Source: Pararhizobium sp. IMCC21322 (GTDB lineage Bacteria; Pseudomonadota; Alphaproteobacteria; Rhizobiales; GCA-2746425). Taken from it: a stretch of 64,000 nucleotides of DNA. The translations under genes were made by a program, and so were the position numbers. Position 1 is the stretch's first letter, and the number at the start of each line of letters is the position of its first letter. A model generated the notes under the pieces. That model ran no database searches and had not been told where the DNA came from. It saw only the letters and a program-made list of their open reading frames with translations. Shown here piece by piece: positions 380 through 19,430 of the stretch. The DNA is taken from contig NZ_CP132335.1 of NCBI RefSeq assembly GCF_030758295.1, positions 3,138,412 to 3,202,411 of the forward strand. The letters are read 5' to 3'.

Positions 380-1120
380 CTATGCAAAGTCCTCGCGGGC
401 GACGAGCCTTTGTGCAGCTTGTTCAAATCTGTGGCGTGTGGCGCGGCGCGCAACTTCCACATCCTGGGCTTGAATGCTCTGGAGCACGGCAAAATGCTCC
501 GCCAGAATATCAGGACCAAATTCTGACGCGGCAGCATTTTTCAAAAATGCCGACCGCAGATTTGATTGAATATTGGATTCAATCATTCCCACCACGTCTT
601 CATAATAACTATTGGCAGACGCTTGTGTGATCAGTCGGTAAAACAGAAGCTCTGAATCCACCCGTTTTTCCAAGGCCTGTTCTGCACCCTGTTTGTCAGC
701 CTCGACCATTAATTGGTAAGCTTTTTCAATTGCTTCCAACTGCTCAGCTGTTCGCATTTCTGCCGCCAACGCAGATGCACCTGCCTGCACGCCGGTGCGC
801 AGTTGCAGTAACTGGACAATTTGTTTGCGAATTTCAAAACAGGCGGGGCTGATGCGAAAGGCAGAGCGATTTTCTGTTTTGGCAATAAAAGCACCGATAC
901 CACGGCGCGAATCCAACACACCGTCGTATTTCAGCAAGGAGATCGCTTCCCTGATCACAGTTCTGGCGACACCAAACCGCTCGGACAACTCGTTTTCAGA
1001 CGGTAATTTATCACCTGGCTTCAGCTGTTTGCTGTCTATCGCCTTGGAAATTGTAGCCGCCACTTCATCCGGCAGCCGACGCGGCCGTGCGATACGATCA
1101 AATTGAAGTGGACTGTTCAC
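380..1120 (-). CDS. GntR/FadR-family (FCD domain) transcriptional regulator
   Basis: A 246-residue protein with an N-terminal winged helix (residues about 10-75; LKPGDKLPSENELSERFGVA, then TVIREAISLL and a wing ending RRGIGAFI) and an alpha-helical C-terminal ligand domain of the FCD type. FCD regulators usually sense organic acids or related metabolites and repress the neighbouring catabolic genes. I chose the GTG start at 1118-1120 because AGGAG lies 10 bp upstream and because it matches the family N-terminus; the reading frame stays open to an ATG at 1216, which would add 32 atypical residues. It diverges from the dehydrogenase-TRAP operon, with a 17-bp palindrome between them, so it probably controls both sides. 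Confidence 0.9.
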   Translation of the reverse strand: MNSPLQFDRIARPRRLPDEVAATISKAIDSKQLKPGDKLPSENELSERFGVARTVIREAISLLKYDGVLDSRRGIGAFIAKTENRSAFRISPACFEIRKQIVQLLQLRTGVQAGASALAAEMRTAEQLEAIEKAYQLMVEADKQGAEQALEKRVDSELLFYRLITQASANSYYEDVVGMIESNIQSNLRSAFLKNAAASEFGPDILAEHFAVLQSIQAQDVEVARRATRHRFEQAAQRLVAREDFA

Positions 1121-1202
1121 GGGCTTGGAACTCCTAATGTGCTGCCAGATATATAGGCGGTCATAGCACGTATGAAAATATTTGTTATGAATATATGAAA
1201 AG

Positions 1203-1219
1203 CAGTTGTCAGACAACTG
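1203..1219. promoter_or_regulatory. Candidate operator of the GntR/FadR-type regulator
   Basis: CAGTTGTCAGACAACTG is a perfect palindrome (8-bp arms, 1-bp centre) between the divergent regulator (start 1120) and dehydrogenase (start 1258) genes. The TTGTC-N-GACAA core is the kind of site FadR/FCD regulators bind. Its position about 40 bp upstream of the dehydrogenase start fits repression of the operon. Confidence 0.65.
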
Positions 1220-1257
1220 ACGTTATGTTTAATGACTTACCGAACAGAGGAATGTTT

Positions 1258-2160
1258 ATGTCATCGACTCAAATTGGTTTCATCGGCCTTGGCGGCATGG
1301 GAATGGGCGTCGTAAAGAATATGGCGCAAAAGGGTCTATCCGTTACCGTGTCAGATTTGGACAGTGACAAAGTGGATCAAGCGGTCAGCCTTGGCGCCCA
1401 TAAGGGTGGCGACATTGTTGAAATCGCAGCACAAAGCGATGTGTTTGCAGTCTGTATCACAACAGCCGAGGCCGTACAGAAACTGTCCCTGGGCCCTAAT
1501 GGTGCATTGGCAAAAATGAAGCCCGGAAGCGTGTTTCTGGATCACACCACCGTATCAGCTGACCACGTCGATGCCATGTATGAAGCATGTCAGGCGCATG
1601 GAATTCTCTATGCAGAGGCGCCGATGACACGCACGCCCATTCATGCTGACCGGGGTGAAGTAAATATTCTTTTCGGAGGTGAGGAGGCTTTGCTCGAGCG
1701 TCTGCGCCCGATTTTCGACACCTATGCGGAAAACATATTCCATGTGGGCCCGGCCGGTCATGCCATCCGCCTGAAACTCATTCACAACTATATCGCATTT
1801 GCCAATGTTGCGGCCTGGTGTGAGGGCTTCGCACTCGCGGCTCATGAAGGGCTGGATATGTCCAAAGTGATCGGCATCATTTCCGCTGCAGGCGGCAAAT
1901 CAGGCATGATGGATTTGTACGGAGAGGCCACATTGAAGCGTGACTTCACCCCGCTGATGTCACTCGCAAATGCTCAAAAAGACGTGCGTTATTACGCCGA
2001 ATGGCTTGAGCGCGCAGGGCTGCCCGGTTTCATGGCTCAATCAGTCCACCAGACCTATGCGCTGGCTTCCATCATGGGGCACGCGGATGAAAGCTGCACG
2101 GCAGTGATCAAAGCCTACGAAGACCTGACGGGTGTTGAAGCCCGACTGGAAGAGGATTAA
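1258..2160 (+). CDS. NAD(P)-dependent dehydrogenase, 3-hydroxyisobutyrate dehydrogenase family
   Basis: A 300-residue beta-hydroxyacid dehydrogenase. The N-terminal Rossmann motif is GFIGLGGMG (residues 7-15), the substrate motif is DHTTVS, and the G-x3-K-type catalytic segment reads RLKLIHNYI, with the conserved Lys and Asn. The family reduces or oxidises short beta-hydroxy acids and semialdehydes (3-hydroxyisobutyrate, tartronate semialdehyde, sulfolactaldehyde and others). The ATG at 1258 is preferred over 1252 because GAGGA is 7 bp upstream of it. It is the first gene of a rightward operon with a TRAP transporter and a NIPSNAP gene, so a step in catabolism of the imported acid is likely. 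The exact substrate is not visible. Confidence 0.9.
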   Translation: MSSTQIGFIGLGGMGMGVVKNMAQKGLSVTVSDLDSDKVDQAVSLGAHKGGDIVEIAAQSDVFAVCITTAEAVQKLSLGPNGALAKMKPGSVFLDHTTVSADHVDAMYEACQAHGILYAEAPMTRTPIHADRGEVNILFGGEEALLERLRPIFDTYAENIFHVGPAGHAIRLKLIHNYIAFANVAAWCEGFALAAHEGLDMSKVIGIISAAGGKSGMMDLYGEATLKRDFTPLMSLANAQKDVRYYAEWLERAGLPGFMAQSVHQTYALASIMGHADESCTAVIKAYEDLTGVEARLEED

Positions 2161-2218
2161 GTCCCGCCACCAAATGGCGGCACTCAATTAATGCAACAAC
2201 ATCTTGGGAGGAAAACAG

Positions 2219-3190
2219 ATGTTTCTAAAAGCAATTATCAGCGGTGTAGCTCTGGCTGCGCTCACAACCGGCGCCATGGGAGCAGATGTCACACTACGAC
2301 TCGCGCATTTTGCGGCGGAAACCCATCCCGGTCACATAGCGGCACTGCAATTTGCAAAGAATGTCGATGAGCGGACAAATGGCAGCGTAACCATAGAGCT
2401 GTTTCCCGCGAACCAACTTGGCTCGCCTCCCGAGCAATTGGAACAAACCATTCTGGGGGCGGTGGATATGAACCTGCCAACCCATGGCGGTTTGGATAAA
2501 TATGAGCGTGCCTTCGGGACGGTCATGACCCCCTTCGCCTTTTCCAGCTACGAAAACGCCCACGAAATACTGGACGGCCCGTTCACAGACTGGACGGCAC
2601 CATTGCTGGAAGCTCAGGGCCTCGTCATGCTGTCCCATTGGGAATACGGCTTCCGCAACATCACCAATTCACAACGGCCTATCAACTCACCTGATGATGT
2701 GAAGGGTCTGAAACTGCGCACACCGCCTGAGCTGCAGATTGTTGCCGCCATGGAAGGGCTAGGGGCATCCACCACGCAGATTGCTTTTCCTGAATTGCCC
2801 AATGCGTTGAACCAGAGCGTCGTTGACGGACAGGAAAATCCCATTGGTGTCATCTATCATTACAAACTCAACGAGTTTCAGGAGCATCTTGCTCTGACCC
2901 GCCACGTCTACAATTCCATGATCCATGTTGTGAACAAAGACGTCTGGGACGGCCTGACCGAGGAACAACAGACCATCCTGCGCGAAGAAAGCGCCAATGC
3001 CGCAAAGACCATGCGCGAGGCCGTTCAAAAGCAGGAAGCAGAAGAACTGGCCGGGTTGAAAGAGCGCGGTATGAAAATCACCGAGCCGGATCTGGCGCCA
3101 TTTGCAGCATTGATGGAACCTGCCCGCAAACGGGTGGCGGAATATAGCGGTGCTGATAATATGGAGAAGTTTTTAGGCTTCTTGAAGTAA
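2219..3190 (+). CDS. TRAP transporter solute-binding protein (DctP family)
   Basis: A 323-residue periplasmic binding protein. The signal peptide runs from the ATG to about residue 21 (cleavage near AMGA-D), after which mature sequence starts VTLRLAHFAAETHPG, the usual DctP opening. The conserved LKLRTPP segment carries the Arg that normally grips the substrate carboxylate. GGAGG lies 7 bp before the start. A strong stem-loop follows the stop codon and the membrane genes come next. It captures a carboxylated solute and hands it to the DctM/DctQ permease; the solute is unknown. Confidence 0.93.
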   Translation: MFLKAIISGVALAALTTGAMGADVTLRLAHFAAETHPGHIAALQFAKNVDERTNGSVTIELFPANQLGSPPEQLEQTILGAVDMNLPTHGGLDKYERAFGTVMTPFAFSSYENAHEILDGPFTDWTAPLLEAQGLVMLSHWEYGFRNITNSQRPINSPDDVKGLKLRTPPELQIVAAMEGLGASTTQIAFPELPNALNQSVVDGQENPIGVIYHYKLNEFQEHLALTRHVYNSMIHVVNKDVWDGLTEEQQTILREESANAAKTMREAVQKQEAEELAGLKERGMKITEPDLAPFAALMEPARKRVAEYSGADNMEKFLGFLK

Positions 3191-3197
3191 CAATTCT

Positions 3198-3237
3198 CGG
3201 TGCCAGCAAAGTGTTTATTCAACAACAGCTGGCACCG
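3198..3237 (+). other. Stem-loop between the TRAP binding-protein and permease genes
   Basis: CGGTGCCAGC at 3198-3207 pairs perfectly with GCTGGCACCG at 3228-3237 (10-bp stem, 20-nt loop). There is no T-run, so it looks like an intercistronic stabilising or partly attenuating hairpin that would favour expression of the binding protein over the permease. Confidence 0.6.
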
Positions 3238-3311
3238 CTGTTGACGTCTCAACCACTCCTGCCTCTCTCTGGGCAAGACCCTGTTGTCCAGCATTCAGAG
3301 CCCAATCCGCC

Positions 3312-4598
3312 ATGACCACATTTCTTATTCTCGGTGTTTTGATCCTGTTGATCGTCATAGGCGTGCCGGTTTCGGCAGCCCTCGGTCTGACAGCGGTTGG
3401 ATTTTACATATTTCTGGGTGATTTCAACATTCTGGCGATGTTGCCTCAGCGAATGTATTCAGCAACGACCGGCTTCACCTTGTTAGCCATTCCGTTTTTC
3501 ATTCTGGCTGGCAATCTCATGAACACCGGCGGTATTACCCACCGCATTTTCAACTTCGCTGACGCAGTGGTGGGCCATATTCGCGGTGGCCTGGGCCAGG
3601 TCAACGTCCTTGCTTCACTGTTCTTTTCCGGCATGTCCGGCGCAGCCGTTGCCGACGCTGCAGGGCTGGGGCAGGTGGAGCTGAAAGCCATGAAAGATCG
3701 TGGCTATGACCCAGATTTTTCAGCCGCGATCACCGCTGCATCATCGACCATCGGTCCCGTGTTCCCTCCCTCCATTCCGTTTGTGCTGTACTCGTCGATA
3801 ACGGGCGTTTCGGTTTCAAAACTGTTTCTTGCTGGCGTCGTCCCGGGCCTGCTGATGGCTGTTGCCTTGATGGGCTCTGTTTATGTGGTCGCGCTGAGGC
3901 ATAAAATGCCGCGACGTGATCATATTGACTGGCCTGCAATCTGGCGCACTTTTCTGGATGCCGGACTGTCCATGGTCACGCCTTTGATCATCATTGCTGG
4001 TATTTTTGGCGGAATTTTCACCCCGACCGAAGCAGGGGTTGCGGCATCTGCCTATGCGCTTTTCCTGTCGATGGTCGTCTATCGCGAAGTAAAGCTAGGC
4101 GATCTGCCAAAAGTGCTCTGGGATACTTTGCTGCATACCATTCGGGTCATGTTTGTGATCGCCGCCGCCGGTTTCTTCGGCTGGCTTCTGGTGCATCAGC
4201 GGGTGCCAAATCAACTCGTTGAAGCCATGCTCACATTTTCGGACAATCCAGCAATCATCATGGCCATCATTGTATTGATTCTGTTGATACTGGGCATGTT
4301 TCTGGAGGGGATCGCCGTCATCGTCCTCACCGTCCCATTGTTCCTGCCGGTGGTCACACACATCGGTGTCGATCCGGTTCAGTTTGGCGTTATCATGATC
4401 ATGTGTTCTATGGTTGGCCTTCTGACACCGCCTGTCGGCATGGTGCTTTTTGCAGTATCCTCAATTGCCAATTTAACAGTCGGACGATTGTCAAAGGCAC
4501 TCATGCCATACCTTCTGGGAATTGTGCTTGTTCTGCTGGTCGTCATCGTCTTTCCGCCCGTTTCAACCTGGTTGCCGGAATTGGTGATGGGTCGATGA
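3312..4598 (+). CDS. TRAP transporter large permease (DctM family)
   Basis: A 428-residue, very hydrophobic inner-membrane protein with about 12 membrane segments, of normal length for DctM. Family sequences such as GVPVSAALGLTAVGFY near the N-terminus, FFSGMSGAAVADAAGLG near residue 100 and the MVGLLTPPVGMVLF segment near residue 370 are clear. It forms the Na+-coupled translocation subunit. The gene comes before the small-permease gene, the reverse of the usual P-Q-M order, and overlaps it by 4 bp (ATGA), so translation is coupled. Confidence 0.93.
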   Translation: MTTFLILGVLILLIVIGVPVSAALGLTAVGFYIFLGDFNILAMLPQRMYSATTGFTLLAIPFFILAGNLMNTGGITHRIFNFADAVVGHIRGGLGQVNVLASLFFSGMSGAAVADAAGLGQVELKAMKDRGYDPDFSAAITAASSTIGPVFPPSIPFVLYSSITGVSVSKLFLAGVVPGLLMAVALMGSVYVVALRHKMPRRDHIDWPAIWRTFLDAGLSMVTPLIIIAGIFGGIFTPTEAGVAASAYALFLSMVVYREVKLGDLPKVLWDTLLHTIRVMFVIAAAGFFGWLLVHQRVPNQLVEAMLTFSDNPAIIMAIIVLILLILGMFLEGIAVIVLTVPLFLPVVTHIGVDPVQFGVIMIMCSMVGLLTPPVGMVLFAVSSIANLTVGRLSKALMPYLLGIVLVLLVVIVFPPVSTWLPELVMGR

Positions 4599-5083
4599 AT
4601 TTACAGCGCTTTGATGCATTCTTAGGCAAGCTCCTACGCGGTATTTCCATAGCCTGCTTTATTGCACTGTTCTTTCTGCTGTTTATCAATGTCATTGCGC
4701 GTACATTTCAGCTGGCTGGCTTTGCTTGGTTCGACGAAATCGTGCAGGGGCTGTTTGCATGGATGGTTTTTTCGGGTGCTGCAGCACTTTGGCGCGAACG
4801 GGAACACTTCGCTGTGGACTGGCTGGAAGTCACATTGGGCCAATCTCAATACGCAATAATGCTGCGCGGACTGATCAGCCTGTTGTGCCTTTGCTTTCTG
4901 CTTGCCATGACCGTTTACGGCTATGATTTATTCCTAAGGAGCAGGGCGCTGACTCCCATTTTACAACTGCCAACGTCACTGTTTTACAGTGTCATCCCGC
5001 TCTCAGGCCTTGTAATGGTCCTCTACACTTTGCGCGATATCAACGTCGCGTTCACTGACCTGCTGTCCCACAAAAGGAAATAA
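4595..5083 (+). CDS. TRAP transporter small permease (DctQ family)
   Basis: A 162-residue protein with four predicted membrane segments. The WFDEIVQGLFAWMVFSGAAALWRER stretch (residues about 47-70) is the conserved DctQ region. The ATG overlaps the dctM stop codon (ATGA). A much longer open frame begins upstream inside dctM, but the overlap start gives the normal family length. It partners the large permease in a tripartite transporter. Confidence 0.9.
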   Translation: MNLQRFDAFLGKLLRGISIACFIALFFLLFINVIARTFQLAGFAWFDEIVQGLFAWMVFSGAAALWREREHFAVDWLEVTLGQSQYAIMLRGLISLLCLCFLLAMTVYGYDLFLRSRALTPILQLPTSLFYSVIPLSGLVMVLYTLRDINVAFTDLLSHKRK

Positions 5084-5087
5084 GACC

Positions 5088-5414
5088 ATGATCTATGATA
5101 TGCGCACCTATGTCTGTCGCCCCGGCACAATCAAAAAGCACATGAAGCTGTATGAAGATCATGGCTGGGAAGCGCAAAGTCGCCATTTGGGATATCCCGC
5201 GATCTATGGCGCTGTCGAAACCGGCGACGTCAATTCTTACGTCCATATCTGGGTTTATGAGGATGCCGCAGACCGCACCGCCAAACGCGCTGCAATGGCC
5301 ACTGATCCGGATTGGCTGAACTATCTGAAACTCAGTGCAGAGGCTGGAAATCTGGTGAGCCAGAGCAACACCATTTTGACACCCGCAGCCTTCTTCGATC
5401 CAAGCAAACGCTGA
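5088..5414 (+). CDS. NIPSNAP family protein
   Basis: A 108-residue single NIPSNAP domain (dimeric alpha/beta-barrel fold). It opens IYDMRTYVCRPGTIKKHMKLYE and contains the typical HIWVYEDAADRTAKRAAM helix. It starts 4 bp after the small-permease stop codon, so it is the last gene of the TRAP operon. Bacterial NIPSNAP proteins often lie in catabolic operons but their biochemical role is not settled. Binding or conversion of an intermediate is possible. A stem-loop follows. Confidence 0.88.
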   Translation: MIYDMRTYVCRPGTIKKHMKLYEDHGWEAQSRHLGYPAIYGAVETGDVNSYVHIWVYEDAADRTAKRAAMATDPDWLNYLKLSAEAGNLVSQSNTILTPAAFFDPSKR

Positions 5415-5432
5415 TACTGAATTTTGGTGATG

Positions 5433-5460
5433 GATGTGGGGTCTAAATACGCCCCACATC
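5433..5460 (+). terminator. Likely terminator of the TRAP/NIPSNAP operon
   Basis: GATGTGGGG at 5433-5441 pairs with CCCCACATC at 5452-5460 (9-bp perfect stem, 10-nt loop), 18 bp after the NIPSNAP stop. No T-run follows, so termination strength is uncertain. Confidence 0.55.
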
Positions 5461-5538
5461 AAATCTGAAGTCCTGTCAGAACGCACTATACAAAGCATCT
5501 GACAGCACAACGTTCCAAACAGATCAAAGAGCAGGCGC

Positions 5539-5823
5539 TGTTCTATCTGCCGCGGATGCGGAGCTCTTGGTCGTATTTCGACCCTGAAAAACTCACCATT
5601 TCCGGCTCTACCGACACATATATGCGGGGTGACAAAAATAATTGAGTTTCATCGGTGCAAGACCTGTGGTGTCCTCACACATTGGAACCACACAGGCGAG
5701 GGCCCAAGCGGGGGCACATGCGAAGGCAGAGGGAACATCGGTGTGAACATGCAGAATATGGAGCTATCCCAGCTCGCAGGCATTCCGGAACATGATGGGC
5801 ATGCAGACGCAACAGATCGTTGA
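5539..5823 (+). pseudogene. Frameshifted, N-terminally truncated GFA-family (glutathione-dependent formaldehyde-activating-like) gene
   Basis: Three successive frames together give a GFA/CENP-V domain. From 5539 one frame reads CSICRGCGAL. After a one-base loss near 5567 the next reads WSYFDPEKLTISGS, TDTYMRGDK. After a one-base gain near 5637 the third reads IIEFHRCKTCGVLTHW and continues to a stop at 5821-5823. The zinc-site cysteines (CSIC and CKTC) are recognisable. The N-terminal CHCG segment that should precede them is not found upstream. Intact members are about 120-140 residues and act on S-(hydroxymethyl)glutathione or related thiols. The gene is broken and almost certainly non-functional, unless the two shifts are sequencing errors. 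Confidence 0.8.
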
Positions 5824-5922
5824 GGAAAGATAGCATCGGACATGTCTCGAATTTCTTCAAACACAGGCCTTTTTTATGATGGCAATACGGACGCTGCTGC
5901 CGTCAGCTCCAACCCAAAATGA

Positions 5923-6432
5923 TCACGCAAAGCGGTAGGAATAAACGTTGTTCAAGTAGGCCTGATCTTCGATGCGAAAGTGGGTCTCTCCGACATGTTC
6001 AAAACCTTGCGCGAGATAAAACGCAATTGCTGGCGTGTTCTCAGCGTTGGTCGCAAGCCAAACAGACTCATCCCCGTTTGTACGGCAATGCTGGAGCGCT
6101 GCATTTAACAATCGCTTTCCAACCCCTTTGCCATGATGACGCGGCTGCACATAGAAGGTAGATATTTCGACGTTTGAACACCCCGGGACGGGCGCCGGGT
6201 TCCCGCAAGACAAGCGTATAAAGCCGTCAATACCTTCGTCATTTTCAGACACAAGAATGAACTCATTGGGATCAGATATCAGCGCCTCAGCCTTGGATGC
6301 GGTGAATTCCTCCAACACATAGTCCGCAAACAAAGCGTTGATGCCGCGCTTTAGATAGGTGCCTATCCAAACCTCAATCGACAGGGCGGCAATGCTTGAG
6401 GCATCTGATTTGTGAGCGGTTCTAAGTGTCAT
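5923..6432 (-). CDS. GNAT family N-acetyltransferase
   Basis: A 169-residue protein with the GNAT fold. The acetyl-CoA-binding motif A is visible as STFYVQPRHHGKGVGKRLLN (about residues 91-110), followed by ATNAENTPAIAFYLAQGFE, a classic motif B. The ATG at 6430-6432 gives the usual opening MTLRTAHKSDASSIAAL; the frame could begin 12 codons earlier at 6468, but neither has a strong ribosome binding site. The acceptor substrate is unknown. It stands alone between the GFA pseudogene and the dif-like site. Confidence 0.88.
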   Translation of the reverse strand: MTLRTAHKSDASSIAALSIEVWIGTYLKRGINALFADYVLEEFTASKAEALISDPNEFILVSENDEGIDGFIRLSCGNPAPVPGCSNVEISTFYVQPRHHGKGVGKRLLNAALQHCRTNGDESVWLATNAENTPAIAFYLAQGFEHVGETHFRIEDQAYLNNVYSYRFA

Positions 6433-6675
6433 AGCTGTAAGGTTTTCTTTCTCAGATGAGAGTCGCATAGCATGAGTGACGGCAAATTGGATGCGAACCA
6501 GTCACATGTCCCAGCGAAGTAGCATCACTCCGAAAATGACCAAGCCGCCGGATCATTCGATGGCTGCTTTCTGGAGGAGGGGAAAGCAGTGCACCAAGCT
6601 CCATCCGTTATGAGCAATGCATATGTAGGCGCATGTAGGGGGTGCCACCATAACACAGTGGGACACCACACCCAA

Positions 6676-6703
6676 TTATCGCATAAGATATATTATGGAA
6701 TAA
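6676..6703. other. dif: Putative XerCD dif site (chromosome dimer resolution)
   Basis: Left arm TTATCGCATAA (6676-6686), 6-bp centre GATATA (6687-6692) and right arm TTATGGAATAA (6693-6703) have the 11-6-11 layout of dif. The core CGCATAA-N2-TATATTATG matches the Escherichia coli dif core exactly at the defined positions, and the whole 28 bp agrees at 18 positions. It abuts the stop codon of the MBL gene. Genes on both flanks mostly point towards it, as expected near a replication terminus. A relict XerCD attachment site is the alternative. Confidence 0.75.
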
Positions 6704-7498
6704 TTATATGTCACAAAACCAGCCATCATAGGCGGGTTCCACGTATTCCGGGGTTTCCTGACGCACTGTCTCATAATCGAGATCGATGTGCATATGGGTC
6801 AATACAGCCTGCTTGGGGCCAATCTGTTCGATAGCCTCAAGCGCCTCGCGCAGTGAGAAATGACTGGGATGCGGATCGTAGCGCAGCGCGTCGACAATCC
6901 AGTGAGACAGTCCGGATAGCAGCGCGGCGCTCTCTGACGGCAATGCGCTGATGTCAGATGAATAAGCCAAGTCACCAATTCGAAAACCGAATGAGAGAAT
7001 GTCACCATGTATCTGTTTAAACGGTAGAATGTCGATGATGCCGCCAGGACCATCAATGGACAGCGTCTCGCCATGTGCAATTTCATGCGCCACAAGAATG
7101 GGTGGATAAGACGAGCCTGTCGGCGTATTGAAGCAATAGTCAAATCCAGCATGCAGCCGATCCAGCGTCACGCGATCAGCATAGATATGGACGCGCTGGC
7201 GTCGGTTGATTACGAATGCGCGCAAATCATCAATGCCGTGGACGTGATCGGCATGCGCGTGCGTGTACAGCACCGCATCAGCCCAATCGATATTTTGCGA
7301 CAGGCATTGTTCGCGAAAATCCGGACCCGTGTCGATGATGATGCGCGTCACGCCATCTTTGCTGCGTTTCTCCACAAGCAGACTACAGCGCCGCCGGCGG
7401 TTCTTTGGATTGTCCGGATCACATGCACCCCATTCATTTCCAATGCGTGGCACGCCGGGCGATGATCCGCTGCCCAGAATGGTAAAGCGCAGGCTCAT
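6704..7498 (-). CDS. MBL-fold metal-dependent hydrolase (PhnP-like)
   Basis: A 264-residue metallo-beta-lactamase-fold protein. The metal motif HxHxDH is seen as THAHADHVHGIDD (His80, His82, Asp84, His85). An upstream ITDTGPD-type segment (IIIDTGPDFR) and the C-terminal LTHMHID add further ligands. The N-terminal GSGSSPGVPRIG is typical of PhnP-like phosphodiesterases. The ATG overlaps the tatD stop by 4 bp, so it is translationally coupled to tatD in a metG-tatD-MBL operon. Its substrate is probably a cyclic phosphodiester but is not established here. Confidence 0.88.
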   Translation of the reverse strand: MSLRFTILGSGSSPGVPRIGNEWGACDPDNPKNRRRRCSLLVEKRSKDGVTRIIIDTGPDFREQCLSQNIDWADAVLYTHAHADHVHGIDDLRAFVINRRQRVHIYADRVTLDRLHAGFDYCFNTPTGSSYPPILVAHEIAHGETLSIDGPGGIIDILPFKQIHGDILSFGFRIGDLAYSSDISALPSESAALLSGLSHWIVDALRYDPHPSHFSLREALEAIEQIGPKQAVLTHMHIDLDYETVRQETPEYVEPAYDGWFCDI

Positions 7499-9865: not shown

Positions 9866-10912
9866 TTAAGCTGGCAAAAGGGCCGCAGCATGTTTGGCTT
9901 TGTTTAGTAGCGCAAACAGGTTCAGGATCAACTGTTTCTTGTCCAGATTATAGGTCTCAGTCTCACGCTGTTGCCGATCCAGCACGTCCCAAACATCAAT
10001 CCACGGGTTTGCAGCGCCCTGCCCGGCCATGGCTTTGGCACGATTATGCACAAAAAGCCGGGCGCGTTCCAAAAACTCCGCGAACAACGCATCACGCCCC
10101 CGCAGGCACAGAGCATCCGCCAGCGCATGCAGATTTTTCAGATCACCCGGAGGCTCATCAAGACGCGCTTGCATGTCGTGCCGCAGATCACCATGGTCTG
10201 TTGCCATAAGATCCATCGCATAGCGCACACGTCCATCTGCCAGCCCTTCAACCAGCGCAAATTCAGCCGCGTCGAATTCCTCCATTTGCGCTTTCACGAT
10301 AGTCGCCATCTCAGTGTCGGTTGGCCGCGAGAGCATGGATTTTCGGCATCTGGACCTAATTGTTGGAAGCAGCCGTTGAATATTATCAGAAATCAATAGA
10401 AACAGACAATTAGAGGGTGGTTCCTCAAGTGATTTCAAAAGCGCATTTGCAGCAGCAGGTGCCATGTCATCCACCTTGTCGACAATGACAATGCGCCAGC
10501 CACCCTCACCTGCTGTTGACCCCAGAAACTGGGTTAACCGGCGCACATCATTCACCGGTATACCGGCTGTCATACGCTTGTTATCCGCATCCCATCGACG
10601 CGACAAAAGGAGCAGATCAGAGTGCGATCCGGCGCTGATTTTAGCCGCAGCCCGACTGTCTGGAGAAACCGATAAATCCTGAACTTTTGGCGCCGCGTCC
10701 CAGACGGCAAATTGATGGTCCAGCAAAAACTTGGCAACCTGATAGGCAAAGGTCGCCTTGCCGCAACTGTCCGGGCCGCCAATCAACCAGGCATGGTGCA
10801 ATCTGCCGTGACCGAGCGCGTCCAGAAACACGCTTTGCAGCTTTTCTGCCCCGACAAGACCCTGCGTCGCGCGTGGCTGCAATATTCGATCATAATCTTC
10901 AACAACGGACAT
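9866..10912 (-). CDS. holB: DNA polymerase III subunit delta-prime
   Basis: A clamp-loader subunit of 348 residues with an AAA+ fold; [20 protein letters not shown] (near residue 45) is the P-loop region, and [21 protein letters not shown] is the conserved sensor region of delta-prime proteins. The ATG at 10910-10912 (VVEDYDRIL) has GGA 8 bp upstream; an ATG two codons earlier is possible. In many Hyphomicrobiales this gene follows tmk, but here its upstream neighbour is gyrA across a 96-bp gap. Confidence 0.92.
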
Positions 10913-10967
10913 GTGCATTCCAGCGGAGAAAATCTGACCCTATTCCAGGATCATCATGGGATCAAAG

Positions 10968-11002
10968 TCATTCCGGGATTTTAATCGAAAACCCCGGAAT
11001 GA
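10968..11002 (-). terminator. Stem-loop after gyrA
   Basis: TCATTCCGGG (10968-10977) pairs perfectly with CCCGGAATGA (10993-11002). Four more A-T pairs can close part of the loop. It starts 6 bp past the gyrA stop codon on the minus strand. There is no clear T-run, so partial termination or transcript protection ahead of holB is plausible. Confidence 0.5.
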
Positions 11003-11008
11003 AGTAGC

Positions 11009-13903
11009 TTATGTGTCTGAAGTGTCTGTATCTGAAGAACCGGCCTCTGATGTGTCAGAATCCGCAGCCTCAGCGTCAGCGCCATCGGAAGAAGCTTGTG
11101 CATCACCTGGCTCTATCACTTCAGAACCATTGCCCTCAGCATCTTCGCCATCGTCCTCATCATCGCCTTCAATCTCGCTAATACGCTCAACAGAAACAAC
11201 AATTTCGTCCTTTGCGGTGTTGAACACCGTGACACCCTGAGTTGATCGGCCCGCGAGACGGATACCATCAATCGGGCAGCGAATGAGCTGACCGCCATTG
11301 GTGACGAGCATGATTTCATCACCCGCATCCACCCGGAAAGACGCAGCGAGTGCCCCGTTTCGGTCAGACATGCTCATCGCAGCAATGCCCTTACCACCGC
11401 GACCGGAAACCCGGTATTCAAAGGAAGAACTGCGCTTGCCATAGCCATTTTCAGATATGGCCAGAATAACCTGCTCAGCTTCAAGCATGGCTTCAAACTT
11501 GGCGTCGTCCAGAACCGTCTCGTCCGGACCTGTAACCGCTTCGGCCTCATCATCAGGCACTTCTGTCGAAGCCCCTTCCTCTTCAATCCCGCGCAACATA
11601 CGACTTTTCTTGATAAAGGCCGTGCGTTCTGCTGGTGTTGCCTCGAAATGACGCAGGATCGACATCGCGATCACAGTATCGCCAGACGCCATGTTGATAC
11701 CGCGCACCCCGACCGAGTTTCGGCCGGTAAAGACGCGCACATCTTGCACTCTAAAGCGAATACACTGCCCTTTCAGGCTGGTCAGCAGCACATCATCATC
11801 GGCAGAACAGGTTTCAACGCCGACAATGGCGTCTCCCTCATCCAGCTTCATGGCGATTTTGCCATTTCGGTTGACCTGAACAAAGTCCGACAGCTTGTTG
11901 CGACGAATTGTGCCGCGCGACGTGGCAAACATCACATCCAACTGTGCCCAGCTCTCTTCATCTTCCGGCAAAGGCATGATTGTGGTGATGGTTTCATCCT
12001 GCTGCAACGGCAGAATATTGATCAGCGCCTTACCGCGAGACTGCGGGCTGCCTATAGGCAAACGCCAGGCTTTCAGCTTGTAGACAATACCGCGTGAGGA
12101 GAAGAACAGCAGCGGTGTGTGGGTGTTGGCCACAAACAGCCGTGTCACGAAATCCTCATCTTTGGTCGACATGCCGGAACGACCCTTGCCGCCCCGTCGC
12201 TGCGCCCGATAAGTCGCCAATGGCACACGCTTGATATAGCCCGTGTGGGATACGGTGATGACCATATCCTCACGTTGGATCAGGTCTTCATCCTCAAGCT
12301 CGGCACCACCGTCCAGAATTTCTGTCCGGCGCGGCGTGGCAAACAGCTCGTGCGATTCCTGCAATTCATCCTTGATGATGGTCATGATGCGCAGGCGCGA
12401 ACCGAGAATTTCAAGATATTCCTTGATCTCGTCGCCAAGCTTGTTCAGCTCGTCAGAAATCTCTTCCTGACCGATCCCTGTCAGACGCTGCAGACGCAGC
12501 TCCAGAATGGCGCGTGCCTGTTCTTCCGACAATGTATAGGTGCCATCTTCCTGAACACGGTGTCGGGGATCATCAATCAGGCGGATCAGCGGCTCAATGT
12601 CTCGTGCAGGCCAGCTTTTCTCAAGCAATTGAGCCCGCGCAGTCGCGGGATCCGGGGCAGCACGGATAAGCGCGATGACCATATCGATATTGGCAACAGC
12701 AATGGCCAGACCCACCAGAACATGAGCCCGATCGCGCGCCTTGTTCAGCAGAAACTTGGTTCTGCGGCTAACAACGACTTCGCGGAATGCCACAAATGCG
12801 CGCAACATATCCAGAAGCGTCATCTGCTCCGGCTTGCCGCCATTCAGCGCCACCATGTTACAGCCAAATGAGCCCTGCAAAGGCGAGAAACGGTAGATCT
12901 GGTTCAACACCACATCAGCAACCGCATCACGTTTCAGTTCAACAACAACCCGCATACCGTCACGATCAGATTCATCGCGTATGTCAGAAATGCCCTCGAC
13001 ACGCTTTTCGCGCACCAGATCAGCGATCTTTTCGATCATGGTGGCTTTGTTCACCTGATAAGGAATTTCGGTGATGATCAGCGCTTCACGGTCCTTGCGC
13101 ACCATTTCGGTGGCCACCTTGCCACGCATGATGACACTGCCGCGACCGGTTTCAAATGCGGAGCGGATGCCAGCACGGCCAAGGATCATGCCGCCGGTTG
13201 GAAAATCAGGGCCCGGCATATGCTCCATAATGCCAGACAGCGTGATCTCCGGATCATCGATCAGCGCAATACAGGAATTGATCACCTCACCCAGATTATG
13301 CGGAGGGATATTGGTGGCCATGCCAACTGCAATGCCGCCGGCTCCGTTGGCCAGCAGGTTGGGGAAGCGGGACGGCATGACAACCGGTTCTCGCTCACGC
13401 CCATCATAGTTTTCCTGGAAATCAACCGTGTCTTTTTCAATGTCCGCAAGCAGATACTGGGCCGCCTTTTCCATTCGGCATTCCGTATAACGCATGGCAG
13501 CAGGTGGATCGCCATCGACAGAGCCAAAATTGCCCTGCCCGTCCACAAGTGGCAGACGCATGGAGAATTCCTGGGCCATACGCACCAGCGCGTCATAAAT
13601 CGCGCTGTCACCATGGGGGTGATACTTACCCATCACCTCACCCACAACACCGGCAGATTTACGATACGGTTTGTTGTGTTCAAGACCCATTCCATGCATG
13701 GCATACAGGATGCGCCGATGCACAGGCTTCAAACCGTCACGCACATCTGGCAAGGCGCGGCTGACGATCACGCTCATTGCGTAATCGAGATAGGACCGCT
13801 TCATTTCTTCAACAATACCGATGCGTTCAATATCGGACGGCAGATCGCCGGATGGCTCGTTTCCCTGAGGGGTATTCTCGTTATCGGACAAATCTGTACT
13901 CAC
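11009..13903 (-). CDS. gyrA: DNA gyrase subunit A
   Basis: A 964-residue type IIA topoisomerase subunit that breaks and rejoins DNA with GyrB. The catalytic Tyr is in AAMRYTE (Tyr139). The quinolone-resistance region reads [20 protein letters not shown] with Ser100 and Asp104, the positions of E. coli Ser83 and Asp87, so it carries the susceptible-type residues. The C-terminal beta-pinwheel includes a GyrA-box region ([11 protein letters not shown]), and the protein ends in a long acidic Asp/Glu/Ser tail. The start is GTG at 13901-13903 without a clear Shine-Dalgarno; a perfect palindrome lies just upstream. Confidence 0.97.
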
Positions 13904-13911
13904 GGGTTAAA

Positions 13912-13928
13912 GGCGACGAATCGTCGCC
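13912..13928. promoter_or_regulatory. Palindrome with central GANTC just upstream of gyrA
   Basis: GGCGACGA-A-TCGTCGCC is a perfect inverted repeat (8-bp arms) 8 bp before the gyrA GTG start. Its centre, GAATC at 13918-13922, is a GANTC site, the target of the alphaproteobacterial methylase CcrM; another (GATTC) is at 13941-13945. In mRNA it would form a GC-rich hairpin exactly where a ribosome binding site is expected, so it could be an operator or a translational control element. Confidence 0.55.
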
Positions 13929-14130
13929 CTGAATTGAGGTGATTCAGTATAGACTGCCAGTACCGCAAAGACCAATTTGACCATGTGAAAATGCCTGCAT
14001 TTTTTTCAAACAAAACAGATAGTTACAGTTATTCTTGCCAAATTCACGATAGGCTCTGTTTTTTCTGGCGTATCAGCGCTTTGAAATTGCGCCTTGACAC
14101 CCATAGGCCATCGCTGCACGGCTTGTTGTC

Positions 14131-14769
14131 ATGGAATTTGATACGCTCATAAATGCCACTGTCACATTGCTGGTAACCATTGATCCAATTGGGCTTGCAC
14201 CGTTGTTTCTGGCGCTCACGGCAGGCATGGACCGCGCCACGCGGACCCAGATTGCCCTGAGAGGCATCCTGATCAGCACAGGCCTTCTGGTGATGTTTGC
14301 TCTGGCAGGTATGACCATCCTTGATCTATTCGGCATCACCATGCCGGCGTTTCGCATTGCAGGCGGTCTGCTTCTCTTCTGGCTGGCTTTTGAAATGGTT
14401 TATGAAAAACGTCAGGAGCGAAAGCAGGAGACCACGGATCGCGCTGTCGTCAGCCATGAAGAGGCAAAGCACATCGCCGTGTTTCCTCTGGCCATACCGC
14501 TGATCGCGGGACCGGGTGCCATCTCGGCAACCGTCCTTTTGTCCACTGAAATGTCATCACCAATAGAGCGTAGTGCCCTGATTGGCGTCATTCTGGCGTT
14601 GATGGTTTTGTGTATGGTGGTCTTCATGCTTGCCGAAAGGCTGGATCACATCCTCGGCGATACAGGCCGCATGGTGCTCACTCGGCTGCTGGGCGTCATT
14701 CTTGCCGCCTTGTCAGTCCAATTCGTAGCAGATGGCATTTTGGCTTTTATGGCCGCACCAACGGCTTGA
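14131..14769 (+). CDS. MarC family integral membrane protein
   Basis: A 212-residue inner-membrane protein with six predicted membrane segments. VTIDPIGLAPLFLALTAG (residues about 14-31) is the MarC-family signature, and a second hydrophobic half begins FPLAIPLIAGPGAISATVLL. The name comes from the E. coli mar locus, but no transport function is firmly established. It diverges from gyrA and converges on the small secreted-protein gene with only 5 bp between stop codons. Confidence 0.9.
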   Translation: MEFDTLINATVTLLVTIDPIGLAPLFLALTAGMDRATRTQIALRGILISTGLLVMFALAGMTILDLFGITMPAFRIAGGLLLFWLAFEMVYEKRQERKQETTDRAVVSHEEAKHIAVFPLAIPLIAGPGAISATVLLSTEMSSPIERSALIGVILALMVLCMVVFMLAERLDHILGDTGRMVLTRLLGVILAALSVQFVADGILAFMAAPTA

Positions 14770-14787
14770 GCCCGCTATTGCGCGGGC
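14770..14787. terminator. Short hairpin between convergent genes
   Basis: GCCCGC (14770-14775) pairs with GCGGGC (14782-14787) around a 6-nt loop, directly after the marC stop and overlapping the end of the convergent gene. It is a weak candidate for a shared terminator. Confidence 0.35.
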
Positions 14788-15173
14788 AAGTCAATTCTAA
14801 ATTCCGCGCCACCATATTCGTGAACCGAATCCTTGGCCCTGATCATTATGAAAGCCGTTTCCGGTGGAATGGCAACACCACCTAGAGAACGCGTGAACGG
14901 CTGTTCATTCACATGCGGATGCAGCAATTCCCGAACAGCAAGCACTTTGCCCTGTGGATCAAGCACCTCAAAGGCATTGGCATAATGGTCCCAGCCCTCA
15001 TCGGCATGGCGGACGGTTGCCTCAACCCGCCATGTATCCCCGCCGGTAGGGGTTGCCGTGGCATTCACCACATCAGCTTCGCCGGCCAACGCCACCGTTG
15101 GCAACATCATGAACGACAAGACAAATGCCGATAAAGAAGCGAAAGATTTCAGGTTTCTAGAACGGAATCTCAT
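14775..15173 (-). CDS. Conserved secreted protein of unknown function
   Basis: A 132-residue protein with a signal peptide ([20 protein letters not shown] then MLPTVALAG, cleavage near ALA-G). The mature part is a small beta-rich domain with the memorable segments [19 protein letters not shown] and [16 protein letters not shown]. Similar periplasmic proteins occur in other Alphaproteobacteria, without an assigned function. The ATG at 15171-15173 (or 15176) lies inside the 3' end of ssb, so the two genes overlap by about 17 bp and are probably co-transcribed; the longer open frame upstream is only ssb in another phase. Confidence 0.75.
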
Positions 15174-15690
15174 CATCCATATCGTCGGCGAAATTGCTAC
15201 CGCCGCCCTTCTGCATCGGGTCTGATTGCCCGAAATTATTACCGCCGCCCTGATTGCCGCCAGCCTGGTTGCCACCGGACTGATTGCTCACAGCACCACG
15301 ATCATAACCGCCGCCGGCAGAATCCTGCCCGCCCTGACCGCGCGAGTCGAGCATCTGCAATTCACCGCGATAGCGTTGCAGCACGATCTCAGTCGTATAA
15401 CGCTTTTGACCGGATTGATCTTCCCACTGCCGCGTTTGAAGCTGGCCCTCAAGATAGACTTTCGCGCCCTTCTTCAGATAGTTCTCAGCAACTTTGGCCA
15501 GATTATCATTGAAAATGACGACCTGGTGCCATTCGGTTTTTTCACGACGCTCACCGGAGTTTTTATCACGCCAGCTCTCACTGGTGGCAATCCGAAGATT
15601 GACGACAGGATCGCCGGAGTTCAAACGACGGATTTCCGGGTCTGCACCCAGATTTCCCACCAAGATTACTTTGTTGACACTGCCAGCCAT
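15157..15690 (-). CDS. ssb: Single-stranded DNA-binding protein
   Basis: A 177-residue SSB. The OB fold (about residues 4-110) begins [19 protein letters not shown] Gly/Gln/Asn-rich flexible linker follows, and the protein ends with the acidic tip DDEIPF that recruits partner proteins. AGGAG is 7 bp upstream of the ATG. It diverges from uvrA, as in many Alphaproteobacteria. A LexA box in the shared upstream region suggests SOS control. Confidence 0.97.
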
Positions 15691-15921
15691 GGCATACTCC
15701 TGACGTAAAGGTCAGCCAGCAAATGCTGGCTCTGTTGGTAAATTGCTGTTTTCGAGCCGCAATTGCAGCTATCGACGAGATAATTGTCGGTTCTTTTAAC
15801 ACACATCGTCGTTTTCCACGGCCTCTTCCACCATTAATGACACACTGCTGACAGTTTTCCACACATGCTGTTGCTATCACGGTCAAAAGCTGAGGTCTGA
15901 ATTCAATTTAATCTCCCAATT

Positions 15922-15952
15922 GAGTCCAGACTCTAGGCTCATCAACGGATTC
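15922..15952. promoter_or_regulatory. Cluster of three GANTC (CcrM) sites in the ssb-uvrA intergenic region
   Basis: GAGTC (15922-15926), GACTC (15929-15933) and GATTC (15948-15952) fall within 31 bp just before the LexA box; a fourth is at 16027-16031. One GANTC per 256 bp would be expected by chance in random sequence. Methylation-dependent regulation of the divergent promoters is possible. Confidence 0.4.
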
Positions 15953-15961
15953 AGAGGTTTT

Positions 15962-15976
15962 GTTCTTTTTATGTTC
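15962..15976. promoter_or_regulatory. LexA (SOS) box between ssb and uvrA
   Basis: GTTC-TTTTTAT-GTTC matches exactly the GTTC-N7-GTTC direct repeat known as the LexA box in Alphaproteobacteria. It lies in the 521-bp gap between the divergent ssb and uvrA genes, both common SOS genes, about 236 bp from the uvrA start and 272 bp from the ssb start. Nothing else recognisable was seen in that gap apart from the GANTC cluster. Confidence 0.75.
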
Positions 15977-16211
15977 CAATTGTGGGGAACATGCATTAGC
16001 CTTAAAAAAAATGCAAGATGTCTGTTGATTCCAGTTCAACTACGCCATGAATACCGGTCTGGACCTTGATTAACGACATCAAAGTGCCAAATCGAAATTG
16101 TACCGGAATAAGAATCATATTCCGTGCAGCACTATTCAGCAGCTAACACCCGGTTTAATCAGTCTCCATTCAATCTGTTTCCATCCCTATTCAGACGGTC
16201 AGTTAAGTTCT

Positions 16212-19148
16212 ATGCCCAGCAAATCCAATTTTGGAACCAGCAGTAAATCCAAGGCTGCAAAGAATCTCACTCCGATGATTTCGGTACGCGGAGCCCGCGA
16301 ACATAATCTGAAAGGCGTGGACATTGATCTGCCCCGGGACAAGCTGATTGTCATGACCGGCTTGTCCGGATCGGGCAAATCCTCACTGGCGTTTGACACT
16401 ATTTATGCCGAAGGCCAGCGACGCTATGTCGAATCGCTGTCAGCCTATGCACGGCAGTTTCTGGAAATGATGCAGAAGCCTGATGTCGACCAGATTGATG
16501 GCCTGTCGCCCGCAATTTCAATTGAGCAGAAAACCACGTCACGCAACCCGCGCTCCACCGTGGGAACTGTCACCGAAATTTACGACTATATGCGGCTTCT
16601 GTTTGCCCGGGTCGGTATCCCCTACTCGCCGGCAACCGGATTACCAATTGAAAGCCAGACAATTTCCCAGATGGTGGATCGCATTCTGGATCTGCCAGAG
16701 GGAACACGGCTGTTTCTGCTGGCCCCCATTGTACGCGGCCGCAAGGGAGAATACCGCAAGGAACTGGCTGAGTTGCAGAAGAAGGGGTTTCTGCGCATCA
16801 AGATAGACGGCACCTATTACGAAATTGCAGATGCACCTGTCTTGGACAAGAAATTCAAACACGACATTGATGTGGTGGTAGACCGCATCGTCGTACGATC
16901 AGACATCGCCTCCCGTCTGGCGGATTCACTGGCAACTGCGTTGGGACTGGCAGATGGCATTGCGGTTGCCGAATATGCTGACACAGCAGAAGGTGCAGAC
17001 ACACCAGAACGTCTGATTTTCTCGGAGAAATTTGCCTGCCCGGTCTCCGGCTTTACCATTGCGGAAATCGAGCCACGCCTGTTTTCGTTCAACAATCCGT
17101 TTGGGGCCTGCCCGACGTGTGATGGGCTCGGGTCTGAAAAACGTGTCAGCGAAGACATGGTCATTCCCGATGCCGAACTCTCCATTGCCAAAGGCGCGGT
17201 TGCGCCTTGGTCGCGCTCAACCTCGCCCTATTACCAACAGACGCTGGCGGCAGTGGGCAAGATTTATGGCTTCGGTCTGCGAGACAAATGGTCAAAACTG
17301 TCTGCCGAGGCCCAGACTGCAGTTCTGTTTGGCACCGGGAAGAAAGAAATCACCTTCACTTATGATGATGGACTGCGCTCCTACAAAACGAAAAAACCAT
17401 TTGAGGGCGTTATTCCCAATCTGGAGCGCCGCTGGCGGGAAACGGATTCCTCATGGTCCCGTGAGGAAATCGAAAAATACATGTCTTCAGCTCCCTGCCA
17501 GACATGCGACGGCTACCGGCTGAAACCCGAAGCACTTGCGGTTAAAATCGCCAGCAAGCACATTGCTCAGATCAGCGAACTCTCAATCCGCAACGCTATG
17601 GACTGGTTCCAGACACTGCCGGAAGATCTGAGCGATAAGCAGAATGAGATTGCCGGACGTATCCTGAAGGAAATTTGCGAGCGACTGGCATTTTTGAATG
17701 ATGTCGGCCTGGAATATCTGACCCTGGCGCGGAATTCGGGAACCCTGTCCGGTGGTGAAAGCCAGCGCATCCGCCTGGCCTCGCAAATCGGTTCTGGCCT
17801 GACTGGCGTTCTCTATGTTTTGGATGAGCCCTCCATCGGCCTGCACCAAAGAGACAATGACCGGCTTTTGACGACGCTCAGACATCTGCGCGATCTTGGC
17901 AATACAGTGATCGTTGTGGAACATGATGAGGAAGCCATTTTGACCGCTGACCACGTGGTCGATGTCGGCCCGATGGCGGGCATTCATGGCGGTGAAATCG
18001 TTGTGGCCGGAACACCGCAGCAAGTCATGAAATGCAAGGAGTCTCTGACCGGGCAATATCTGTCCGGACGGCGATCCATTCCTCTGCCAAAAACGCGGCG
18101 CAAACCAACAAAGAACCGGAAAATTACGATCAAAGGCGCAACAGGTAACAATCTGAAAGACGTCACCACATCGATTCCGCTGGGTACATTTTGTTGCATC
18201 ACCGGCGTGTCAGGTGGCGGCAAGTCGACCTTGCTGCTCGATACGCTGTACCGGGCCGTTGCCAGACATCTGAATGGTGCAAAAGCCCTGCCGTCGCCAC
18301 ACAAAGCCATTACCGGACTGGAGCATCTGGACAAGGTCATTGATATCGATCAATCCCCCATTGGCCGCACACCACGTTCCAACCCCGCGACCTATACCGG
18401 TGCCTTTACACCAATTCGAGAATGGTTTTCCGGCCTTCCCGAAGCAAAAATCAGAGGCTACGCACCTGGCAGGTTCTCATTCAACGTCAAAGGCGGACGG
18501 TGCGAAGCCTGTCAGGGTGATGGTGTCATCAAAATCGAGATGCACTTCCTGCCGGATGTCTATGTCACCTGCGATGTCTGCAAGGGAAAGCGCTATAATC
18601 GAGAGACCCTGGAAGTGCAGTTCAAAGGCAAATCCATTGCTGATGTGTTGAACATGACTGTTGATGAAGGCGCTGTGTTTTTCGCCGCAGTGCCTGCCGT
18701 CCGCGACAAGATGCTGACACTGCAACGGGTTGGGCTTGGCTATATCAAGGTTGGACAGCAAGCCACAACACTCTCTGGCGGTGAAGCGCAGCGGGTAAAA
18801 CTGGCAAAGGAGCTGTCAAAACGCTCCACCGGCCGCACACTTTATATTCTGGATGAGCCCACAACCGGCCTGCATTTTCATGACGTCGCCAAATTATTGG
18901 AAGTTCTTCATGAACTTGTGGATCAGGGAAATTCAGTCGCCGTCATTGAACACAATCTGGAGGTCATCAAAACCGCAGATTGGGTGATCGACATCGGCCC
19001 GGAAGGCGGCGATGGCGGCGGAGAAATTGTGGCGGAAGGTACCCCTGAGCAAATCATAAAGGAAGAGCGGTCTTACACAGGAAAATTCCTGAAAGATTTG
19101 CTGGAGCGACGCCCGGAAAATGGCGACGTTATGATGGCTGCTGAATAG
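16212..19148 (+). CDS. uvrA: Excinuclease ABC subunit A
   Basis: The damage-recognition ATPase of nucleotide excision repair, 978 residues with two ABC modules. Walker A motifs are GLSGSGKSS (near residue 50) and GVSGGGKST (near 665). ABC signatures LSGGESQR and LSGGEAQR are present. The C-terminal zinc module (CEACQGDG ... CDVCKGKR) is complete. In the N-terminal module the first pair reads CPVSGF, so Ser replaces the second Cys found in E. coli; I believe this is common in Alphaproteobacteria. The ATG at 16212 gives the normal length, and the open frame upstream (to 16098) is unlikely to be translated. Confidence 0.96.
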
Positions 19149-19182
19149 CCCAACAAGAGCCCACTAAAGCAGCGATTCCCGG

Positions 19183-19210
19183 TTAATCTGGCAGAATTCT
19201 GCCAGATTAA
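19183..19210. repeat. Perfect 28-bp palindrome downstream of uvrA
   Basis: TTAATCTGGCAGAA (19183-19196) is followed at once by its exact reverse complement (19197-19210), centred on GAATTC. It lies 35 bp after the uvrA stop. As RNA it would form a long hairpin that could end or protect the uvrA transcript, but no T-run follows. As DNA it could be a binding site. Confidence 0.6.
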
Positions 19211-19430
19211 TGCTGTCGACCTCATTTTCTGAAGACAGCTTTGTGACCAGCTTTTGGAAAATCGGGACAAATCCTTGATTCTTAAGAAAGTTTTGCACGA
19301 GACCTGCGTTTTTTGCAGGACAGATATTCCGTTTTGTCACTCCACAAATGTTGCAACGCACCCTAAATAGCAATCATCAGAGAAACGAAACAAACTCTGA
19401 ATTTAAAACAAACCCAAACCGGAGACTAAA

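Follow-up and report, generated by a model that had tools for sequence, protein, structure and literature searches.

Does the 28-bp element that adjoins the stop codon of an MBL-fold hydrolase gene represent the chromosome's own dif site, and do the replication forks end at the same point? The element occupies positions 3,145,087-3,145,114 of the single 5,252,332-base contig, of which the analysed stretch of 64 kb (the window) covers 3,138,412-3,202,411. Based on its sequence, uniqueness and conservation, the convergence of KOPS on it and the presence of xerC-, xerD- and ftsK-like genes, we conclude, with a probability of roughly 97%, that it is the chromosomal dif of this Rhizobiales bacterium, the site of chromosome dimer resolution. 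This identity was proposed in the first-pass annotation, and it is now supported by the uniqueness of the core, a KOPS switch in three of three chromosomes and the fit to alphaproteobacterial dif sequences.

Sequence, uniqueness and conservation of the site

It was proposed in the first-pass annotation that the element has the 11-6-11 layout of a XerCD site and carries CGCATAA-N2-TATATTATG. When the sequence was re-read both were found on the forward strand, and a recount of the identity to E. coli dif gave exactly the 18 of 28 positions claimed. The reported contact with the MBL stop codon was also confirmed, as the codon (6704-6706) directly adjoins the 28-mer with zero overlap. The G+C content of the 28-mer is 21%, and 22 of its 28 positions match its own reverse complement, making it partly palindromic. 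None of the open reading frames of at least 100 aa listed for the window overlaps it, and tRNA and Rfam scans of the 64 kb gave no match. The exact E. coli dif 28-mer, allowing up to 3 mismatches, had no match in the window, as expected from the 10 differences. The coordinates of the site and its main neighbours are given in Table 1.

Table 1. Features of the putative dif site and neighbouring genes (window positions)
Feature	Position	Strand	Basis or remark
Putative dif site, 28 bp, 11-6-11	6676..6703	+	Sequence TTATCGCATAAGATATATTATGGAATAA, core search, conservation, alignment
Left arm TTATCGCATAA	6676..6686	+	Published dif sequences compared; would be the XerC-binding half by analogy with E. 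coli
Central hexamer GATATA	6687..6692	+	Identical in 5 of 5 genus genomes and in the published Agrobacterium tumefaciens dif
Right arm TTATGGAATAA	6693..6703	+	Would be the XerD-binding half by analogy with E. coli
GNAT gene, nearest left of dif	5923-6468		Points away from dif
MBL-fold hydrolase gene, stop codon adjoining dif	6704..7498	-	ORF and profile match; a neighbour, not part of the mechanism
gyrA	11009-13903	-	Profile match
uvrA	16098-19148	+	Profile match

The core was searched for as a pattern of 16 fixed bases that spans positions 5-22 of the 28-mer. In the 5.25-Mb source genome (G000) the pattern had one perfect match, no match with 1 mismatch, one with 2 (at 249,499 on the minus strand) and 17 with 3, one of the last being dif itself on the opposite strand. 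By simple arithmetic, a random sequence of 2 x 5.25 Mb should contain the 16 fixed bases about 0.002 times. Read backwards, the same pattern gave a single match in this genome when 1 mismatch was allowed and 13 when up to 3 were allowed; since the control has comparable matches with mismatches, it is the perfect core match alone that stands out. The dif core is single-copy on the chromosome, both as a perfect match and at up to 1 mismatch, and a search for further copies or a better dif match found none better on the replicon.

A family-level search returned five genomes including the source, all of one genus (the other four are referred to as G001-G004), and each of the five had exactly one core match when up to 1 mismatch was allowed, a perfect one in every case. 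Among 297 genomes of the order, which were sampled evenly from a larger group and include the five genus genomes, the core was present at up to 1 mismatch in 231 and had no such match in 66, with at least 2 matches in 16 (read off the table); the backwards control was non-zero in 3. Thirty-five loci were aligned (the 5 from the genus and 30 from the order, a subset of the 231, with several from one genus). Beyond the searched core, positions 23-25 were G, A and A in 34, 34 and 35 of the 35, and positions 1-3 and 26-28 were variable. Compared with the window, the G001 site differs at positions 2, 3, 24 and 26-28, and that of G004 at position 26 only.

The place of the site is also conserved, as it lies at an equivalent location in four of the five genus genomes, and the 28-mer directly adjoins the MBL stop codon in G002, G003 and G004 as well. 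In G001 the MBL gene is separated from dif by an ORF, by eye a GntR-type regulator, and by an unrelated TRAP operon that is 29-36% identical to that of the window. Genes for MBL, TatD, metG and holB were present in all four genus relatives, and the TRAP operon on the left of the window is shared only with G003, as judged from up to 20 kb in each relative. The two nearest relatives of the MBL protein are 94% (an alphaproteobacterial MAG) and 91% ('Rhizobiales bacterium IMCC20636', CP018226.1) identical to it.

KOPS polarity and gene direction

KOPS, the octamer GGGNAGGG that orients FtsK, is known from E. coli, and its polarity switches sharply at the site. In the source genome the ratio of plus-strand to minus-strand copies was 25:1 to the left and 1:27 to the right of dif over 464 kb, and 76:1 and 1:27 over 864 kb, where the switch is best placed between -11.7 and +2.7 kb. 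Similar ratios were obtained over 420 kb in G002 (29:2 left, 1:24 right; switch -3.3 to +1.7 kb) and in G004 (33:2 left, 3:23 right; switch -2.7 to +4.1 kb), such that the switch interval contains dif in all three chromosomes. Fisher p values ranged from 2e-11 to 9e-23 (about 9e-23 for the source genome over 864 kb), with the sites treated as independent. In a scan that assumed no motif, GGGCAGGG was the most strand-polarised octamer across dif among those counted at least 15 times in 464 kb.

A control octamer, GGGANGGG, was counted in G000 (31:10 left, 5:10 right; best switch -30 to -13 kb) and in G002 (11:5 left, 2:16 right; tied best switches near -42 and +5 kb). As this control is polarised too, though less so, the KOPS bias is in part a general strand bias. 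Over the whole genome 268 forward and 248 reverse KOPS were counted, compared with 154 and 214 for the reversed pattern. Near the origin the copies shift from mostly minus to mostly plus around 312-356 kb, with exceptions on either side.

The direction of the genes follows the same division. The claim that genes converge on the site was upheld by the totals for 50 kb on each side (ORFs of at least 200 codons): on the right 33.8 kb of coding sequence is directed left and 7.7 kb right, and on the left 29.0 kb is directed right and 9.2 kb left. It did not extend to the GNAT gene, the first one to the left, which points away from dif. Pfam and NCBIfam profiles identified GNAT, MBL, TatD, metG, holB, gyrA and TRAP genes among the neighbouring ORFs, with no match in either set for the ORF at 5052-5510; the earlier assignment of gyrA was thereby borne out. 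Both gyrA and uvrA lie less than 13 kb from dif.

GC skew and the replication terminus

The first-pass annotation also expected the GC skew to switch within a few kb of the site, and this was found to hold only loosely. To the right of dif the raw skew of the source genome was -0.04 to -0.06 in each 50-kb bin examined. To the left, successive 50-kb bins gave +0.002, -0.005 and -0.021, and +0.01 to +0.04 was reached past 150 kb. A two-level step fit placed the switch 16.7 kb to the left (95% interval -30.7 to +1.3 kb on 864 kb; -46.7 to +21.3 kb on 464 kb), but the cumulative skew has its maximum at -167 kb and falls only slightly from there to dif, forming a flat plateau. The same fit gave +8.0 kb (-20 to +30) in G002 and 0 kb (-26 to +26) in G004, and the plateaus reach 126 kb to the right and 118 kb to the left of dif, respectively.

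Other measures of skew were less clear. Twenty spaced 20-kb samples over the whole chromosome were too noisy to locate a switch, with 8 of 9 negative from 3.25 Mb round to 0.25 Mb and just 4 of 9 positive on the left arm between 1.0 and 3.0 Mb. The skew at fourfold sites, split by gene strand, was intermediate and noisy in the stretch beside dif, with unequal arms. Published distances between dif and the skew switch span 146 bp to 199,612 bp (median 7,277 bp), the large ones being put down mainly to noisy skew (PMC2731167), and the distance in the source genome falls inside this range as given there.

On the origin side of the source genome, dnaA was located at 473 kb and parB at 348 kb, and the cumulative skew had its minimum near 394 kb (190-530 kb examined). 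On the 5.25-Mb chromosome, the point opposite dnaA is 45 kb away from dif and the one opposite parB about 170 kb. In G000, G002 and G004 the dnaA-opposite point lies at -45, +28 and +114 kb from dif and the parB-opposite point at -170, +157 and -209 kb. The skew plateau is on the parB-opposite side in all three chromosomes and on the dnaA-opposite side in two, three genomes being too few to decide. A shift of the skew maximum to one conserved side was considered and dropped, as G000 and G002 agree after correction for orientation and G004 disagrees. Besides the 321-aa parB and a weaker 740-aa match at 810 kb, the source genome has four ParB-like ORFs of 575-605 aa on the plus strand (at 1107324, 1716242, 3526167 and 4642455), which may belong to mobile elements.

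The first-pass annotation implied the stronger claim that the replication forks also end exactly at dif. The KOPS switch and the change of gene direction at the site are in line with this, as are the step fits at -17, +8 and 0 kb in the three chromosomes. Plateaus that stretch 118-167 kb from dif, always towards the parB-opposite point, speak against forks that end exactly there, although with dnaA as the origin marker the side agrees in two of three only, and we regard the claim as possible but somewhat doubtful. Another study argues that termination occurs near dif and not at it (PMC3025954). Within this genus the forks might usually meet in a zone 120-170 kb wide that lies between dif and the point opposite a parB-side origin, with KOPS and gene direction anchored at dif, a proposal that we put forward very tentatively and consider rather unlikely. 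If true, one chromosome would have two different termini, one marked by selection for segregation and the other by the mutational trace that replication leaves. The contrast between a sharp switch in KOPS and a blurred one in skew provides a natural test, on a small scale, of where replication ends, at dif or opposite the origin.

Phage-like elements, the Xer machinery and known dif sites

The identity of the 28-mer as dif can be weighed against two other readings. It might be a dif-like attachment site of a phage or integrative element and not the chromosome's own resolution site, as phage-like genes do occur at dif elsewhere in the order, between two sites in another genome (G150) and beside dif in G001. 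This is very improbable for the source genome, in which the site is single-copy and the neighbouring ORFs scanned with Pfam and NCBIfam gave no match to a phage family; the equivalent location in four of five genus genomes and the convergence of KOPS also argue for a chromosomal site, and single-copy conservation at a KOPS switch already contradicts the attachment-site reading. That the 28-mer resembles dif by chance, or is an AT-rich inverted repeat that acts at the 3' end of the MBL transcript, could be suggested by its partial palindrome beside the MBL stop codon, but can be dismissed almost entirely in view of its low G+C content, its retention in G001 where a different TRAP operon parts it from MBL, a conserved core that is the published dif core (PMC2731167) and the switch of KOPS polarity.

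The phage-like elements are a side observation. On contig C17 of G150 (locus span 780-6859) two dif cores with the same orientation lie 6,062 bp apart, and the 18-base core of the copy at 6842-6859 is identical to that of the window. ORFs between them match a phage replication initiation protein, an endolysin and a major head protein, the last being the weakest match (E 8e-9); three of the six ORFs scanned had no match, one of these lying outside the two sites. We read this element as a microvirus-like provirus. On contig C55 of G001 (locus 9986-19347) a block resembling tailless double-jelly-roll phages is situated next to dif and continues to the end of the contig. Its helix-turn-helix ORF begins 89 bases from dif, and beyond it come ORFs for a cell-wall hydrolase, a P2 (PM2-type) coat protein, a terminase/HerA-like ATPase and a Rep_1 protein. 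At 24-26% identity, the coat protein matches double-jelly-roll capsid or head proteins from three Vibrio phages, and the ATPase had no match in viral_contigs. No second dif was found at the far end of this element, where the stretch ends with the contig; among 39 matches at up to 3 mismatches in G001 only dif had fewer than 3. Integration of small phages at dif or dif-like sites has been proposed for microviruses of Bacteroidetes (PMC3091885), for tailless vibriophages (PMC9966536) and for the Rhodobacter phage Jorvik (PMC10589892). A search of open-access text for microvirus, provirus, dif and Rhizobiales together found no paper, which is no proof of absence. The phage-like cases suggest that XerCD may act on the same 18-base core in related bacteria.

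A profile search of the source genome gave nine tyrosine recombinase matches. The two best are an XerD-like gene at 254.6 kb (TIGR02225, 314 bits) and an XerC-like gene at 71.6 kb (TIGR02224, 313 bits), both slightly below the NCBIfam equivalog cut-off, and a single FtsK gamma domain, above the Pfam cut-off, is located at 73 kb. The order of strand exchange by the Xer recombinases is known from E. coli. By analogy, an odd number of crossovers between sister chromosomes would yield a dimer, and FtsK at the division septum would pump the DNA along KOPS, which on both arms are directed at dif. The two copies of dif would then meet and the FtsK gamma domain would activate XerD, with XerD and then XerC exchanging strands at the ends of GATATA to give two monomers. 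Xer binding, the order of exchange and the activation of XerD at this site are all modelled on E. coli.

The site is almost certainly a clear and ordinary example of a well-known feature. As a firm terminus landmark on a Rhizobiales chromosome, it allows the replichores, KOPS and gene direction in the window to be read correctly. Like E. coli dif, it has the 11-6-11 layout with CGCATAA and TATATTATG; the two differ in the outer arm bases and in the centre, which is TGTATA in E. coli and GATATA here. As suggested in the first-pass annotation, the site was also compared with alphaproteobacterial dif sequences, and these fit it better (21-24 of 28 identical) than that of E. coli. In the published table (Carnoy and Roten 2009, PMC2731167, Table 1) identities are 23 of 28 for Bradyrhizobium, 23 of 28 for Brucella chromosome I and 21 of 28 for Mesorhizobium. 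The closest, at 24 of 28, is the dif listed there for the circular chromosome of Agrobacterium tumefaciens C58, which shares 23 consecutive bases (positions 3-25) with the site, including the GATATA centre, and differs from it at position 2 and in the last three bases of the right arm.
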